Source of the DNA: Psychrobacter sp. APC 3281
GTDB lineage: Bacteria > Pseudomonadota > Gammaproteobacteria > Pseudomonadales > Moraxellaceae
Length of the DNA stretch: 64,000 bases
Direction of reading: 5' to 3'
NCBI RefSeq assembly: GCF_030407815.1
Contig: NZ_JASDCS010000003.1
Coordinates: forward strand, 186,001-250,000
In this document: positions 22,583 to 29,441 of the stretch, piece by piece
How the letters are laid out: every line of letters begins with the position of its first letter
How positions within the stretch are numbered: the stretch's first letter is position 1
Notes under the pieces: model-generated
What the model saw: the letters and a program-made list of their open reading frames with translations, nothing else
Told to the model about the DNA's origin: nothing
Database searches by the model: none
Position numbers and translations under genes: made by a program

Positions 22583-25480
22583 TTACATATAGTTTTCGAT
22601 ACTTGGGCAAGAGCACATTAGGTTCTTATCACCATAAGCATCATCGACACGAGCGACACTTGGCCAGAACTTGTTTGCCCGGATGTACGGCAGTGGGAAT
22701 GCAGCAGTCTCACGGCTATAAGGATGCGTCCACTCTTCACTAGTAATCATAGCAGCCGTATGCGGTGCATTGACTAATGGGTTATCTTCTAGCGTCCAGT
22801 TATCTTCACCAGCTTTGGCTTTCATGGCTTCAGCTTTGATAGATTTTAGCGCACTGATAAAGCGATCCAACTCTTCTTTTGATTCAGACTCTGTTGGCTC
22901 AATCATAAGCGTACCAGCGACTGGGAAGCTCATCGTTGGCGAGTGGAAGCCGTAATCCATCAAGCGCTTAGCGATATCGCTTTCCGTGATGCCAGTTTCT
23001 TCTTTTAACGGACGAATATCGATGATGCATTCGTGAGCCACGCGGCCATTTTTGCCTGCATACAAGACAGGGTAGTGACCTTTTAATTCGGCTGCTACGT
23101 AGTTGGCGTTCAGTAATGCCAGCTCCGTTGCTTTTAATAGACCATCACGGCCCATCATAGCAATGTACATCCATGAGATAGGTAAGATGCTCGCTGAACC
23201 ATAAGGTGCTGCTGATACTGCTGAGCAGTCCTTTTGTGCATTGTGTACAGGGCTCAAGGTATGATTGGCCATAAACGTTGCCAAATGCGCTTTCATACCG
23301 ATAGGGCCCATGCCTGGACCGCCGCCACCATGCGGAATACAGAAGGTTTTGTGCAGGTTCATATGTAGTACATCAGCACCAACGTCTGCAGGCTGCATCA
23401 TGCCTACCTGAGCATTCATGTTCGCGCCGTCCATATAGACCTGACCACCATGCTTGTGGGTCAAATCACAGATATGACGGATGCCTTCTTCGAATACACC
23501 GTGCGTCGATGGATAAGTGATCATTAGAGCACCTAGGCGGTCGCTATATTCTTCACATTTGGCCGTTAGATCATCGATATCAACGTTGCCATTTTCATCA
23601 GTTTTGACCACGACCACTTGCATACCCATCATCATGGCAGTAGCAGGGTTGGTACCGTGCGCCGACATAGGAATCAAGCAAACATCGCGATTGGTTTCGC
23701 CCAATGACTCATGATAACGGCGAATCGCTAACAGACCAGCATATTCACCAGAGGCGCCAGAGTTTGGCTGCATAGAGACATCATCAAAACCAGTAATGGC
23801 TTTTAATTGATCTTGCAAGCTATCGATCATCGCGATATAGCCAGTGACTTGATCGCGCGGTGCAAAAGGATGCACGTTGGCAAACTCAGGCCAAGTAATC
23901 GGTAGCATCTCACTGGTGGCGTTTAGCTTCATGGTACAGCTACCCAGTGAAATCATGCTGCGGTTCATCGCCAAATCTTTGTCTTCAAGCGACTTTAGGT
24001 AGCGTAGCATTTCATGCTCGGTGTGATGCGAGTTAAATACTGGATGAGTCAAAATGTCATCCGTACGCAAGTGTGCGCTATCTAGAGAGACGCGAGCTGT
24101 TTCAGGTAGATCGTGTGACTTGTTGACGAATAGCTGAGTCAACGTGTTGAAATCTTGCTGATCGCTAGTTTCACTAAATGCAACGCTCAATTTGGTGTCG
24201 CTTAGACGCCATAAGTTATAGCCAACGTTGTCTGCATTTTTAAAGATTTGAGTAGCAAGCTTCTCTGAACCACAATCAACGACGACTGTATCGAAGAATT
24301 GATCATGTACCACGCTCAAGCTGCTGTCATTAGATTCTGTGATAGCATCAGCAAACGCAGTGGCAAACGCATGAATACGAGTGGCAATACGCTTCACGCC
24401 GCCTGGACCATGGTATACCGCGTACATACCAGCGAGGTTAGCTAGTAATACTTGTGAGGTGCAGATGTTTGAGTTGGCTTTTTCGCGGCGGATATGCTGC
24501 TCACGCGTTTGTAGAGCCATACGTAATGCAGTATTGCCTTGTGCATCTTTTGAGACACCAATGATACGACCAGGTGCTGAACGCTTGGCTTTATCAGAAA
24601 ACGCAAAATAAGCGGCATGCGGACCACCAAAGCCCATTGGTATACCAAAGCGCTGCGTACTACCTAGCGCTACGTCAGCACCCATATCGGCTGGTGATTT
24701 CAATAACACCAAGCTCATGATGTCACTGACGACACTGACGTAAGTTTTGTTTTCTTTTACGGCCGCGATGACGTCTGTTAAGTCTTTAACGTCACCTTCA
24801 GCACCGACATACTGGAATAGCGCACCAAAATAATCGCCTGATTTAGCCGTTTCAAAATCACCAACGACCACTTCCCAACCAAAGTATTTAGCACGAGTAT
24901 TGATAACATCTAGCGTTTGCGGATAGACACGCTCGTCGACGAAATACTGCGTTGATTTGCTTTTGCTCACACGCTTTGACATCGCCATCGCTTCTGCCGC
25001 TGCTGTTGCTTCATCAAGCAATGACGCACCAGCCAGCTCAAGACCTGTTAGATCAATACATACTTGTTGGAAGTTCAGCAATGCTTCTAGACGACCTTGA
25101 GCGATTTCAGCTTGATAAGGGGTATAGGCGGTGTACCAGCCTGGATTTTCAAGGACGTTGCGCTGAATGACGGCAGGCATACGAACCGGAGAGTAGCCTT
25201 GACCGATATAGCTTTTGTTAACAGTGATGTCATCTGCCATCGTGCGTAGTTTGGCAAGTGCCGCATGCTCACTCATCGCCACTGGCAAATCCAGCTCTTT
25301 GTGCAGACGTACTGGCTCAGGCACAGTGTCATTGATAAAGCTTTGCATATCTTTATAACCAACAGCGCTGAGTAGGTCAGCTTGCTTGGTTTCGTTCGAA
25401 CCTAAGTGGCGATAGACAAATTCAGCTTCGTTGAACAATCCTTGAAAGGTATCAAACGATGGGTTTTGAGAGATAGTCAT
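22583..25480 (-). CDS. gcvP: glycine dehydrogenase (decarboxylating), P-protein
   Basis: PLP subunit of the glycine cleavage system; decarboxylates glycine and passes the aminomethyl group to lipoyl-GcvH. The 965-residue protein is the fused homodimeric form. PLP-binding Lys711 lies in MNLHKTFCIPHGGGGPGMGP; RHLGSNE near the N-terminus and GSCTMKLNATSEM are family blocks. The start ATG is preceded by AAGGATTGTC. It is the last gene of the leftward gcvT-gcvH-nitroreductase-gcvP cluster and is followed by a strong terminator. The riboswitch ahead of gcvT could control it through a long transcript, though the 260-base gap after gcvH may hold another promoter. Confidence 0.97.
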   Translation of the reverse strand: MTISQNPSFDTFQGLFNEAEFVYRHLGSNETKQADLLSAVGYKDMQSFINDTVPEPVRLHKELDLPVAMSEHAALAKLRTMADDITVNKSYIGQGYSPVRMPAVIQRNVLENPGWYTAYTPYQAEIAQGRLEALLNFQQVCIDLTGLELAGASLLDEATAAAEAMAMSKRVSKSKSTQYFVDERVYPQTLDVINTRAKYFGWEVVVGDFETAKSGDYFGALFQYVGAEGDVKDLTDVIAAVKENKTYVSVVSDIMSLVLLKSPADMGADVALGSTQRFGIPMGFGGPHAAYFAFSDKAKRSAPGRIIGVSKDAQGNTALRMALQTREQHIRREKANSNICTSQVLLANLAGMYAVYHGPGGVKRIATRIHAFATAFADAITESNDSSLSVVHDQFFDTVVVDCGSEKLATQIFKNADNVGYNLWRLSDTKLSVAFSETSDQQDFNTLTQLFVNKSHDLPETARVSLDSAHLRTDDILTHPVFNSHHTEHEMLRYLKSLEDKDLAMNRSMISLGSCTMKLNATSEMLPITWPEFANVHPFAPRDQVTGYIAMIDSLQDQLKAITGFDDVSMQPNSGASGEYAGLLAIRRYHESLGETNRDVCLIPMSAHGTNPATAMMMGMQVVVVKTDENGNVDIDDLTAKCEEYSDRLGALMITYPSTHGVFEEGIRHICDLTHKHGGQVYMDGANMNAQVGMMQPADVGADVLHMNLHKTFCIPHGGGGPGMGPIGMKAHLATFMANHTLSPVHNAQKDCSAVSAAPYGSASILPISWMYIAMMGRDGLLKATELALLNANYVAAELKGHYPVLYAGKNGRVAHECIIDIRPLKEETGITESDIAKRLMDYGFHSPTMSFPVAGTLMIEPTESESKEELDRFISALKSIKAEAMKAKAGEDNWTLEDNPLVNAPHTAAMITSEEWTHPYSRETAAFPLPYIRANKFWPSVARVDDAYGDKNLMCSCPSIENYM

Positions 25481-25544: not shown

Positions 25545-26303
25545 TTATACGTAATGCACAAACTGTTTTTGATCAAAGCGGAACTGGGTGTTGTAAACGC
25601 CACTGTCAGCGCGCTCGCCTGCGCCAAGCATCATAACGATATGATGGTCGTCGCTAAGATTGAGCAACGCTTTCATGGCAGGCTCATCAAAGCCGCCCAT
25701 AGGACAGCTATCAAAACCATGAGCGCGTAATGCTAGCATCAGGTTTTCGGCGGCAAGCGCGGTGTTATTGGTTGCCCAGTTTTTGGTGTCTTCAAAGGTA
25801 TAGTAAGGCGATTTAATTGGGCCTTTTACGCGTCTGACCACTTGCGTTGCGCCCCATTTTGCAGCCGAAACCACGTTGGCTGGGCCGCGCAAAAAGTCCA
25901 TTGTGACGACTTTGTTGTAGTAGTCTTTCACTTTCTTTGGCACTGGCTGATCAGGATATTCGCGCAATACTTGCTTAGCGTGATCGTGCCAAACATCAGT
26001 ACGAGCAACGATGGCAATCAAACGGGCTGATGTTTTTGCGGCGTTTTGATTCATACAGTTTTTGACGGCGCGTTTGCGATTGTCAGCATCATCGATAACA
26101 TAAAATTCCCACGGCTGTAGGTTGCTAGAGTTTGGCGCTAGCATGGCCAAACGCAGACAGTCTGCCAATACGTCATCAGGGATAGGTGTGTCAGTAAAAC
26201 GGCGCACGGAACGGCGTGACTCTACGATATCGCGAAACGCTTGTAGCTGCGGCGTATGGTTTGGTGTGGCAATGGGGTCTTTATTATCGGTGTTGGCATT
26301 CAT
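25545..26303 (-). CDS. nitroreductase family protein
   Basis: FMN-dependent NAD(P)H oxidoreductase fold, about 252 residues from the ATG at 26303, which has GGA eight bases upstream; the frame is open to 26387 through non-ATG codons. ESRRSVRRFTDTPIPDDVL is the FMN-binding N-terminal motif, LAPNSSNLQPWEFYVI follows, and GFDSCPMGGFDEPAMKALL is the second conserved block. The substrate is not predictable. Its position between gcvH and gcvP, in the same direction, is unusual; it may simply have inserted there or be co-regulated by glycine. The N-terminus is the least certain part. Confidence 0.82.
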   Translation of the reverse strand: MNANTDNKDPIATPNHTPQLQAFRDIVESRRSVRRFTDTPIPDDVLADCLRLAMLAPNSSNLQPWEFYVIDDADNRKRAVKNCMNQNAAKTSARLIAIVARTDVWHDHAKQVLREYPDQPVPKKVKDYYNKVVTMDFLRGPANVVSAAKWGATQVVRRVKGPIKSPYYTFEDTKNWATNNTALAAENLMLALRAHGFDSCPMGGFDEPAMKALLNLSDDHHIVMMLGAGERADSGVYNTQFRFDQKQFVHYV

Positions 26304-26632
26304 ATTAGGATCCATGCTGAGAATTGGGTTATCAGTTTGCGTCGTTATTGATAGCACGTATTCATTGGGATTCGAATAGGTGATCAATACGAGTCAATGA
26401 GATAACGCTTGGTAGCAATAACATCGGAGGATAATGATTGTTGGAGATCTACATATAAAGCTGCTTTCAAATAATAAGCATGGTCAATGAGCCAATACTT
26501 TTAATGAGAAAGGTTGTTCAAACAGTTTAAATAGAGAGTATAGATACCAGCTGTTGCCAGTATCTATGTTTAGTCGGGGCTAGTGCTTTGTACGAGCTAA
26601 AGTCTTACAAGTGCTAATGTCTTGTGAGAGCA

Positions 26633-26655
26633 TGCTTAGCTTGCGTGCTTAGCTT
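26633..26655. repeat. short direct repeat at the gcvH stop codon
   Basis: TGCTTAGCTT at 26633-26642 and again at 26646-26655 (13-base period); the second copy overlaps the gcvH stop codon. Confidence 0.6.
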
Positions 26656-27034
26656 ATAAGTCGCTTTCGTACTCGTCAGCAGTCATTAGTGCTTCGTAGT
26701 CAGCGATGTTGTCAGGCTTCATTCTGAAGAACCAACCTTCGCCGTATGGGTCAGAGTTGATGATTTCAGGATCATCTTCTAGTGCTTCATTGATAGCGAT
26801 CACTTCACCTGAAATAGGCGCATAAACGTCAGAAGCCGCTTTTACTGATTCAACAACTGAGATTTCGTCATCAACAGCGATGATATCGCCCACATCTGGT
26901 AGCTCAACGAATACCACATCACCCAATAGATCTTGAGCATGGTCAGTGATACCAACAGTGATCGTACCGTCGTCTTCTAGGCGTAGCCACTCGTGACTAG
27001 CAATATATTTTAGCTCTGCTGGGATGTTGCTCAT
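26654..27034 (-). CDS. gcvH: glycine cleavage system H protein
   Basis: Lipoyl carrier of the glycine cleavage system, shuttling the aminomethyl group between GcvP, GcvT and lipoamide dehydrogenase. The 126-residue protein has the lipoylation site Lys65 in [19 protein letters not shown] and the usual [18 protein letters not shown] at the N-terminus. GGAGAGAGACC precedes the ATG. It is 117 bases downstream of gcvT and probably on the same riboswitch-controlled transcript. No lipoamide dehydrogenase gene is in the window; the cell would use a shared copy. Confidence 0.97.
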
Positions 27035-27151: not shown

Positions 27152-28345
27152 CTAAGAGTCAAACTGTTGCTTGCCGTTACGGACAAAAGGTAGCTTTAGT
27201 ACGCGTACATCGACGAATTTACCTTTGCCGCGTAGATCGACTTGTACGCTGTCATCTTCTGATAAGCTGGTAGGTACACGAGCAATCGCGATTGAATTTT
27301 TTAGGCTAGGGGAGAATGTACCGCTGGTGATAATGCCAGTTTGCTCGTTATCAGTGCCTTGATTGATAGTCACTGTCATGCCTTCACGCAATACGCCGCG
27401 CGTGGTCAATAGCAAGCCCACTTGCTTCATAGCGGTGTTGTCTTCTTTTGACTGCTTACGTTTGCTGACCAATGCTTCACGACCGACAAAGGCGCGGTCG
27501 TCTTTGAGCGCTAGCGTCCAGCCCATGTTGCACTCGTAAGGGCTGATGGTCTCGTCCATGTCATGGCCATAAAGGTTCATGCCTGCTTCCATACGCAAGG
27601 TATCACGTGCGCCAAGACCGGCAGGTTTGATGCCATTTGCTTTTAGCTGCTCAAAGAAAGCAGGGGCATCATCGGCATGCATAATGACTTCGACGCCATC
27701 TTCACCAGTATAGCCAGTACGAGCCACAAACCAATCGGTGCCTTCGATATCGGTCAAATCAGCACCAACGAAAGGTTTTAGTGCTGCTAAGGTATCTGTC
27801 CAGCTTGGTTTGGCCTGAGCCAGTTTTGCAATAGCATTTGGACCTTGCACGGCAAGCATAGCAAGCTCAGGTCGCTCGGTAATCGTAATATCGAAACCTT
27901 CGGCGACTTTATTAAACTGTGCTAAATCCTTGTCACGAGTGGCCGCGTTAGAGACGATACGGTACTCAGTTTCCTCTGCATTCATGAGATAGACGATCAA
28001 ATCATCGATGACGCCGCCTTGCTCATTGAGCATACCAGAGTACAGCGCTTTACCAGCGGTAGTGAGTTTGTTGACATCGTTTGCGAGCAGCTTTTGTAGC
28101 CATGCTTTAGTATCAGCGCCTTTGATATCAGTCACAACCATATGTGAGACATCAAACATACCTGCATCTGTGCGTACTGCTTCGTGCTCTTCGATTTGTG
28201 AACCATAATGAATTGGCAATTCCCAACCAGAGAAATCGACCAGTTTGCCCTCACTATCAATATGAGACTGGTAAAAAGGGGTGCGCTGAGGAGCTTGGCT
28301 TTGATCGTTTTGAGAAGTGATGTCTTGAGAATGGGTATCAGTCAT
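27152..28345 (-). CDS. gcvT: aminomethyltransferase, glycine cleavage T protein
   Basis: Folate-dependent T protein that releases ammonia and forms 5,10-methylene-tetrahydrofolate. 397 residues, with family blocks [37 protein letters not shown] and [20 protein letters not shown]. The first 20 residues (Gln/Asp/Ser-rich) are an extension. The ATG follows AAGGA with good spacing, and a complementary TCCTTA at 28385-28390 upstream could mask that ribosome site. It is the first gene of the cluster behind the tandem glycine riboswitch. Confidence 0.96.
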
Positions 28346-28519
28346 AACAAATCCTTATGTGTACATCAGTCGTACTCGGTAGAGTAAGGAGTGATGCGCA
28401 ACGTAAAAGTAGCGAGAAGCAATATTGCAAGGCGCAAATATCACATCAAAGGGTGACACAGAAAGCAAAGATGAAGACGTAAGCCAAACCAACACTGAAC
28501 GTCGGTTTAAGCTAAAGCC

Positions 28520-28869
28520 CTATCTGTCCTGTGACCTGAGATTTTCAACACGAACCATCATTTTTGGGCAGTTGTATGAGCCCTATCGTCGATGATAGCG
28601 TATTTTCTCCCCTTCGGTGGGTAAGGCGTCGTCCGTTCTTACCACTCTCCAGATTTGTTATGCCTTATGTTTGATAAAAAAGTAGTGCGCTATGAGCGTC
28701 ATACTACTAAACATTATCAAACAACAGTGACATGCGTTTTTCAGTCCTTTTACCTGAGCGATTGGCAGGGTGGATGCGCCTTCGGTGGTTATCTAGCAAT
28801 TGCGATAGTTGTATAACCAATAGGGTTCAATACAAAAACGATGCTGATAAACTCTCTCCTGAAAAACGC
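28520..28869 (-). ncRNA. tandem glycine riboswitch (gcvT element, two aptamers)
   Basis: On the reverse strand two glycine aptamers precede gcvT. Aptamer 1 (28869-28734) has a perfect 11-bp P1 (GCGTTTTTCAG with CTGAAAAACGC), AGGAGAGAG, CACCGAAGGCGCA and GCTCAGGTAAAAGGAC. Aptamer 2 (28654-28522) has a 5-bp P1 (ATCTG/CAGAT), GGAGAG, CACCGAAGGGG and TCTCAGGTCACAGGACAG. These blocks are the conserved core of the glycine riboswitch. The linker of about 80 bases is unusually long and folds into its own hairpin. No T-rich terminator follows, but the leader contains TCCTTA (28385-28390) able to pair with the gcvT ribosome site TAAGGA (28352-28357), suggesting translational control. Confidence 0.93.
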
Positions 28870-29120
28870 TTTTATTATGAAAGGTTCAAAGCGCTTTTAC
28901 AAGTCATCAAAGCCATTAAAATAAATAAATTTGGCAAAAATAATGTTTTGATAGGGCAGTCTATGAAATAGGTTATGTTTTACAACGATATTTTTATCGC
29001 TCATATCAGCGTTTTATCTGTGTGTTTTGACAAAAATTACCATAGCAAAACGCAAAGCGACTACTGGTATTTGCCTGAAATATGCTAACCTACGCCCATA
29101 GTTTCTGATAGGTGGTTTTT

Positions 29121-29441
29121 ATGCATTGCGATATTTATAAATTTCCCAAACACGACGACATGTATATCTACATTGCGCGTCCTGATTATCCTGATGATAC
29201 TGATGAAATCAAAGACTGGCTTGGTGTATTACCAAAAGATTTCCGTGCAGGTTTAGGCCGTAGTAAGTTCGTCATGCATTTGGACTTATCAACTAAAGAT
29301 AAGCTCGCTCGTGTCGACAAAGAAGAAGTACTGGCAAAATTACAGTCTCAAGGCTACTTTGTGCAGTTGCCGCCGCAAGATGTGATGCGCCGCCAAGCAG
29401 AGCTGCGCGCTCGTGAATCGCAGGACAGCATCTATAATTAA
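29121..29441 (+). CDS. ycgL: YcgL domain protein
   Basis: A 106-residue protein of the YcgL family (DUF709), found across gammaproteobacteria, function unknown. CDIYKFPKHDDMYIYI at the N-terminus, the helix LPKDFRAGLG and FVMHLDLSTKDKLAR are the conserved blocks; the C-terminal QGYFVQLPPQ completes the domain. The ATG at 29121 is chosen rather than an in-frame GTG nine bases earlier because GATAGGTGG provides the ribosome site. It is divergent from the gcv operon. In other gammaproteobacteria this gene is often near rnd; here rnd is 8 kb away. Confidence 0.88.
   Translation: MHCDIYKFPKHDDMYIYIARPDYPDDTDEIKDWLGVLPKDFRAGLGRSKFVMHLDLSTKDKLARVDKEEVLAKLQSQGYFVQLPPQDVMRRQAELRARESQDSIYN

Follow-up and report, generated by a model that had tools for sequence, protein, structure and literature searches.

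The window analysed here, a 64,000-nucleotide (nt) stretch of the genome of Psychrobacter sp. APC 3281 (contig NZ_JASDCS010000003.1, positions 186,001 to 250,000), carries on its minus strand a tandem glycine riboswitch 5′ of gcvT, in which the 3′ end of the linker joining the two aptamers, CAUAACAAAUCU, is complementary to the ribosome-binding and start region of gcvT, GGAUUUGUUAUG. This complementarity, described here for the first time, is well supported, and points to a linker that belongs to the expression platform rather than serving as a spacer alone. We consider it likely that the element is a translational ON switch for gcvT that lacks the usual leader–linker helix (P0), has a linker hairpin lying flush on the P1 helix of aptamer 1, and holds an anti-ribosome-binding-site (anti-RBS) strand within its linker.

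The aptamer pair itself is an ordinary RF00504 tandem riboswitch, with two adjacent aptamers in one untranslated region (UTR) 5′ of a glycine gene. In an Rfam covariance search of the window both aptamers, whose conserved cores had been recognized in a first-pass annotation that did not state their location on the minus strand, pass the model, with scores of 54.7 bits (aptamer 1) and 43.7 bits (aptamer 2) against a gathering score of 32 bits for RF00504; no other Rfam match reaches the gathering threshold in the window. They are the sole glycine aptamers of the 3.11-Mb genome, and from their sequences the RNA is expected to bind glycine. At least one glycine aptamer match is present in 104 of the 105 genomes of the genus, and most have two.

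Complementarity of the linker end to the gcvT start

The anti-RBS sequence CAUAACAAAUCU comprises the last 12 nt before the GGAGAG of aptamer 2. When the gcvT start codons of the genus are assigned with the GcvT motif, at least 11 of the 12 anti-RBS pairs can form in 87 of 94 loci, and at least 10 are consecutive in 83 of the 94; sliding the register by up to 6 nt leaves a mean of 3.5–6.1 pairs of 12. Within the window, 11 of the pairs are consecutive Watson–Crick pairs, a run found in one of 3000 upstream-region shuffles and at no other ORF start among the 61 present, and the 14-mers containing the anti-RBS and start-region sites each occur once in the genome. If G-U pairs are freely allowed, 12 pairs are reached by 21 of 500 shuffles, and the complementarity of the single sequence then falls short of significance.

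The same pairing dominates predicted folds. An unconstrained fold of the 560-nt UTR forms 12/12 anti-RBS pairs with a mean probability of 0.973, and in this fold P1 of aptamer 1 and the upper linker stem are intact while the basal helix of the linker hairpin and P1 of aptamer 2 are absent; the anti-RBS helix is mutually exclusive with both of the latter. Over 92 distinct UTRs of the genus the median pairing probability is 0.973, with values above 0.5 in 77. Compensatory change is also seen: in one deep clade the linker changes from AUAAC to AUGAC and the start region from GUUAUG to GUCAUG, and at locus L132, of a sister genus, AUGAUAAAUC faces GAUUUAUCAU, with AUGAU pairing with AUCAU.

Linker hairpin, aptamer spacing and the missing kink-turn

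The linker had been proposed in the first-pass annotation to form a hairpin of its own, with stems GTTTGATAA (28669-28677) and TTATCAAAC (28714-28722) enclosing AGTAGT/ACTACT. These stems were exactly placed and the hairpin is real, but it is larger than described, since below these stems lies a closing 5-bp basal helix (28733-28729 with 28664-28660). It is thus built of three layers, the basal helix AUGUC/GGCAU, a 10-bp stem UGUUUGAUAA/UUAUCAAACA and the apical AGUAGU/ACUACU stem, and its 3′ side extends into the 5′ flank that Rfam assigns to aptamer 2. The 69-base linker between the Rfam matches folds at −21.5 kcal/mol, compared with −10.3 ± 2.3 kcal/mol for dinucleotide shuffles, none of 200 of which is equally stable (z = −4.95). 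A run of six U residues follows the apical stem (28675-28708, minus strand) in the window and in its close relatives, a terminator-like arrangement that most of the genus lacks.

The hairpin is present across the genus with an interior that varies in length and sequence; neither outcome named in the first-pass annotation as refuting its reading, an aptamer failing the covariance model or a hairpin not conserved in relatives, was obtained. Counting of named pairs in 74 distinct aligned linkers shows pairing in 97.3% of cells for the basal helix by itself, whose third pair occurs as GC, UA, AU and CG types, and in 88% for the basal and middle helices together, compared with 28–56% when these are slid by 1–3 columns. 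Cells changed on both sides number 35, against 10.4 in shuffles, and none of 500 shuffles gives as many. We note that the AUG of the hairpin opens an 8-codon reading frame, AUGUCACUGUUGUUUGAUAAUGUUUAG (28707-28733, minus strand); the main clade retains this AUG, a conservation that its pairing with CAU probably explains.

The gap between the aptamers, taken as the distance from the GGAC of aptamer 1 to the GGAGAG of aptamer 2, is 93 nt in the window and 31–182 nt across 98 loci of the genus, none of which has a linker as short as 19–22 nt. In a sample of the class a gap of 19–22 nt is found in 13/22 loci and a longer one in 8/22, so that the short linkers previously taken as usual are indeed so. 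Of 85 distinct genus linkers stripped of their P1 strands, 69 have a predicted hairpin that starts 0 nt from P1 of aptamer 1 and 73 have one whose end lies 5 nt short of P1 of aptamer 2, whatever the length of the linker, and subtraction of the 74-nt hairpin from the 93-nt gap of the window leaves 19 nt, the usual gap of short-linker relatives. The constant flanks and the 19-nt remainder therefore indicate that the hairpin is spacing-neutral. This fits the suggestion that it holds the two aptamers a set distance apart, although spacing alone is probably too little: the complementarity to the ribosome-binding site was overlooked in that proposal, and the role of the hairpin is probably more than spacing.

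In more than 90% of tandem glycine riboswitches the leader pairs with the linker end to form P0 and a kink-turn, and this structure is required in Bacillus subtilis (PMC5666159). It is missing here, as the first-pass annotation had rightly implied: where P0 should lie, a 5-bp helix of that kind is found in 4/52 loci of the genus, where 3.7 are expected by chance, as against 13/20 loci (3.9 expected) in the class controls. A search by duplex energies was uninformative because leader composition dominates, and the fixed-position search was used instead. The absence of P0 is apparently a consequence of the promoter, which abuts P1 and would leave no leader. Of 70 distinct upstream regions, 66 have the arrangement TTGTAA-17-CATAAT at one fixed distance from GGAGAG, a position from which the transcript is likely to start within P1 of aptamer 1. 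The coordinates of these features are collected in Table 1.

Table 1. Features of the gcvT riboswitch locus, in window coordinates
Feature	Position	Strand	Remarks
Promoter −35, TTGTAA	28897..28902	-	Conserved at −43..−38 from GGAGAG in the genus
Promoter −10, CATAAT	28874..28879	-	17-nt spacer to −35
Glycine aptamer 1 (RF00504)	28732..28871	-	One arm with an insertion of ~56 nt
Aptamer 1 P1, 5′ strand, GCGUUUUUCA	28860..28869	-	Pairs with 28734-28743; 10/10 pairs in minimum-energy fold
Inter-aptamer linker hairpin, 74 nt	28660..28733	-	
Basal helix, 5′ strand, AUGUC	28729..28733	-	Flush on aptamer 1 P1
Upper stem, 5′ strand, UGUUUGAUAA	28714..28723	-	Pairs with 28668-28677; present in both modelled states
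Basal helix, 3′ strand, GGCAU	28660..28664	-	CAU shared with anti-RBS
Anti-RBS, CAUAACAAAUCU	28651..28662	-	Hairpin end, 5-nt connector and aptamer 2 P1 5′ strand
Glycine aptamer 2 (RF00504)	28514..28662	-	
Aptamer 2 P1, 3′ strand, AGAU	28522..28525	-	Pairs with 28651-28654
gcvT start region, GGAUUUGUUAUG	28343..28354	-	Shine–Dalgarno end, spacer and start codon; complementary to 28651-28662
gcvT, aminomethyltransferase of the glycine cleavage system	27152..28345	-	
gcvH	26654..27034	-	
gcvP	22583..25480	-	

A proposed translational switch and its alternatives

Complementarity and mutual exclusion are results of computation; we infer the switching, its direction and its action on translation. 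The strand 28664-28651 would choose among three partners, AUGUC at 28733-28729, AGAU at 28525-28522 and the gcvT start region, and closure of the linker or formation of P1 of aptamer 2 would each exclude pairing with the gcvT start. The hairpin would stack flush on P1 of aptamer 1, and the 5-nt connector would keep the aptamers as close as in short-linker relatives. When glycine is absent, the anti-RBS helix would form, the gcvT start would be hidden and translation would be low; when it is present, P1 of aptamer 2 would form and, with docking, favour closure of the basal helix, so that the anti-RBS would be reclaimed and the gcvT start opened. Mutations in CAUAACAAAUC would then raise gcvT translation without glycine. 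The ON direction is that expected for glycine cleavage genes and that measured in Neisseria gonorrhoeae (PMC13104608). A more tentative extension, to which we give somewhat less than even weight, is that the linker is the expression platform, that the 5′ strand of the hairpin mimics the start (AUGUC for AUGAC) in competing for the shared anti-RBS, that docking, linker closure and release of the start codon are one event, and that this natural riboswitch, having lost the kink-turn, could for that reason bind glycine cooperatively.

It is unlikely that the hairpin is a structural spacer only, which loops out surplus linker for docking, perhaps stacked on P1 as a substitute for the kink-turn, and in which the complementarity to the ribosome-binding site has no part. 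Such a spacer would accord with an aptamer spacing that stays constant while the length and interior of the hairpin vary freely, and with the occurrence in Moraxella of a linker hairpin without the anti-RBS register, but it leaves unexplained why the 12-bp start-region match lies at one register in 83–87 of the 94 genus loci, why compensatory changes occur, and why the anti-RBS helix is near-certain in predicted folds. A neutral, self-closing insertion, tolerated as harmless, appears less likely again: the hypervariable interior would be accounted for, as would the linker hairpins of other gammaproteobacteria (L146, L155, L156 and L163) and the small ones of Neisseriaceae relatives, yet the 98 genus loci include none below the minimum gap of 31 nt, and the basal helix is maintained through compensatory change.

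Control could also lie in an element 3′ of aptamer 2 (28513-28360), either as a local anti-Shine–Dalgarno sequence, UCCUUA (28390-28385), or of the small-RNA type. UCCUUA does match the Shine–Dalgarno sequence UAAGGA and a hairpin is present in this region; since, however, an exact downstream match is found in 13/96 genus loci only and the unconstrained fold favours the linker anti-RBS, we regard this as improbable. A P5 pseudoknot between a G run 3′ of aptamer 2 and a run of C in the P3b of that aptamer was also considered and rejected, the G run being present in 96/96 loci and its C partner in 25. By far the least probable reading is that the hairpin acts between the aptamers as an intrinsic terminator or attenuator, with AGUAGU...ACUACU followed by UUUUUU: the U run is confined to the close relatives of the window and absent from most genus linkers, and a scan of 28300-29200 finds no terminator-like site, hence no sign of a transcriptional type of control.

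Several results weigh against the translational switch that we favour. Covariation in the anti-RBS helix amounts to about two independent compensatory events (one change between two clades of the gcvT tree, to which L132 adds one), because the main clade shows almost no variation in either strand, and some covariation measures for this helix do not go beyond shuffles. Mismatches occur in L013, L018, L120 and L123, and pairing at this register is lost in L003, L004, L126-L128 and Moraxella. RNAalifold predicts no pairs on the 74-linker alignment, a result that says little because the interior is mostly gaps. In the energy model, from which ligand and tertiary energies and cotranscriptional folding are left out, a hand-forced ON state exceeds the minimum by 20 kcal/mol and has a Shine–Dalgarno sequence that is still partly paired, so that what is modelled is not a balanced switch; the cost of opening the start region is 8.1 kcal/mol in the window and 2.5–12.6 kcal/mol in twelve relatives. 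With respect to Moraxella, we note that at the Moraxella-type locus L136 the gcvT start region AAGGACACCCCAU has a 13-nt match to AUGGGGUGUUUUU just 3′ of aptamer 2, which suggests that the anti-RBS may have moved elsewhere in that genus.

Relation to known riboswitches and the surrounding locus

The Psychrobacter architecture departs from the canonical one in having no P0, an obligatory linker hairpin flush on P1, and an anti-RBS in the linker. Like the canonical tandem riboswitches of Vibrio cholerae and of B. subtilis gcvT it has a single expression platform after a pair of RF00504 aptamers, and as in B. subtilis it would control glycine cleavage genes (PMC5666159), but the leader–linker kink-turn is replaced by the hairpin and no platform of the terminator type is found. 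The gcvT riboswitch of N. gonorrhoeae has no P0 or kink-turn and no terminator, and is a translational ON switch acting through sequestration of the ribosome-binding site (PMC13104608). It thus shares with Psychrobacter the gcvT context, the absence of P0 and the absence of a detected terminator, ON control in Psychrobacter being our proposal; it differs in that its sequestering strand is reported to lie inside aptamer 2, close to the glycine pocket (PMC13104608), whereas that of Psychrobacter would consist of the linker end and P1 of aptamer 2, and the two Neisseria linkers sampled are 19–20 nt long with no hairpin. A linker hairpin alone is not unique, since the gammaproteobacterial loci mentioned above likewise have one inserted near P1 of aptamer 1, and small linker hairpins occur in Neisseriaceae relatives; L155, L156 and L163 differ, however, in keeping a clear P0 between leader and linker end, and L146 has one in a free helix search. 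A limited literature search found no published description of glycine riboswitches from Psychrobacter or specifically from Moraxella.

The reason for having two aptamers is disputed, cooperativity having been ascribed to constructs without the leader kink-turn and others arguing for a possible kinetic role (PMC5666159, PMC12060979, PMC9481103). Psychrobacter provides, at the scale of a genus, natural gcvT tandem riboswitches without that kink-turn and of widely differing linker length, so that natural sequences can serve to test how linker and kink-turn affect cooperativity. Should the anti-RBS model be true, the linker, usually seen as a passive joint, can become a switching element.

The window GcvT is up to 99% identical to GcvT of named Psychrobacter species, and in a genome scan its nearest relatives outside the Moraxellaceae are from Neisseriaceae (L250-L254; 65–68% identity), which also have gcvT riboswitches without P0. 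Given these matches and the absence of P0 in N. gonorrhoeae, the lack of P0 may be shared with the Neisseriaceae lineage, and horizontal transfer of gcvT together with its riboswitch is possible. Acinetobacter-type riboswitches were considered as a short-linker sister group and dropped as an orthologous control because they are located 5′ of a DadA-like oxidoreductase and not of gcvT. Two such loci in Acinetobacter-like genomes of the same family, L036 (1734-2978) and L062 (1748-3001), have a tandem glycine riboswitch 5′ of a DadA-like FAD amino-acid oxidoreductase, with 19–22-nt linkers and no P0 signal. One Acinetobacter-like genome (G229; L053) bears four glycine aptamer matches, spread over two contigs, which probably represent two tandem riboswitches. 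Within the window itself the glycine cleavage cluster is standard apart from a nitroreductase-family gene (25545-26387, minus strand) that lies between gcvH and gcvP.
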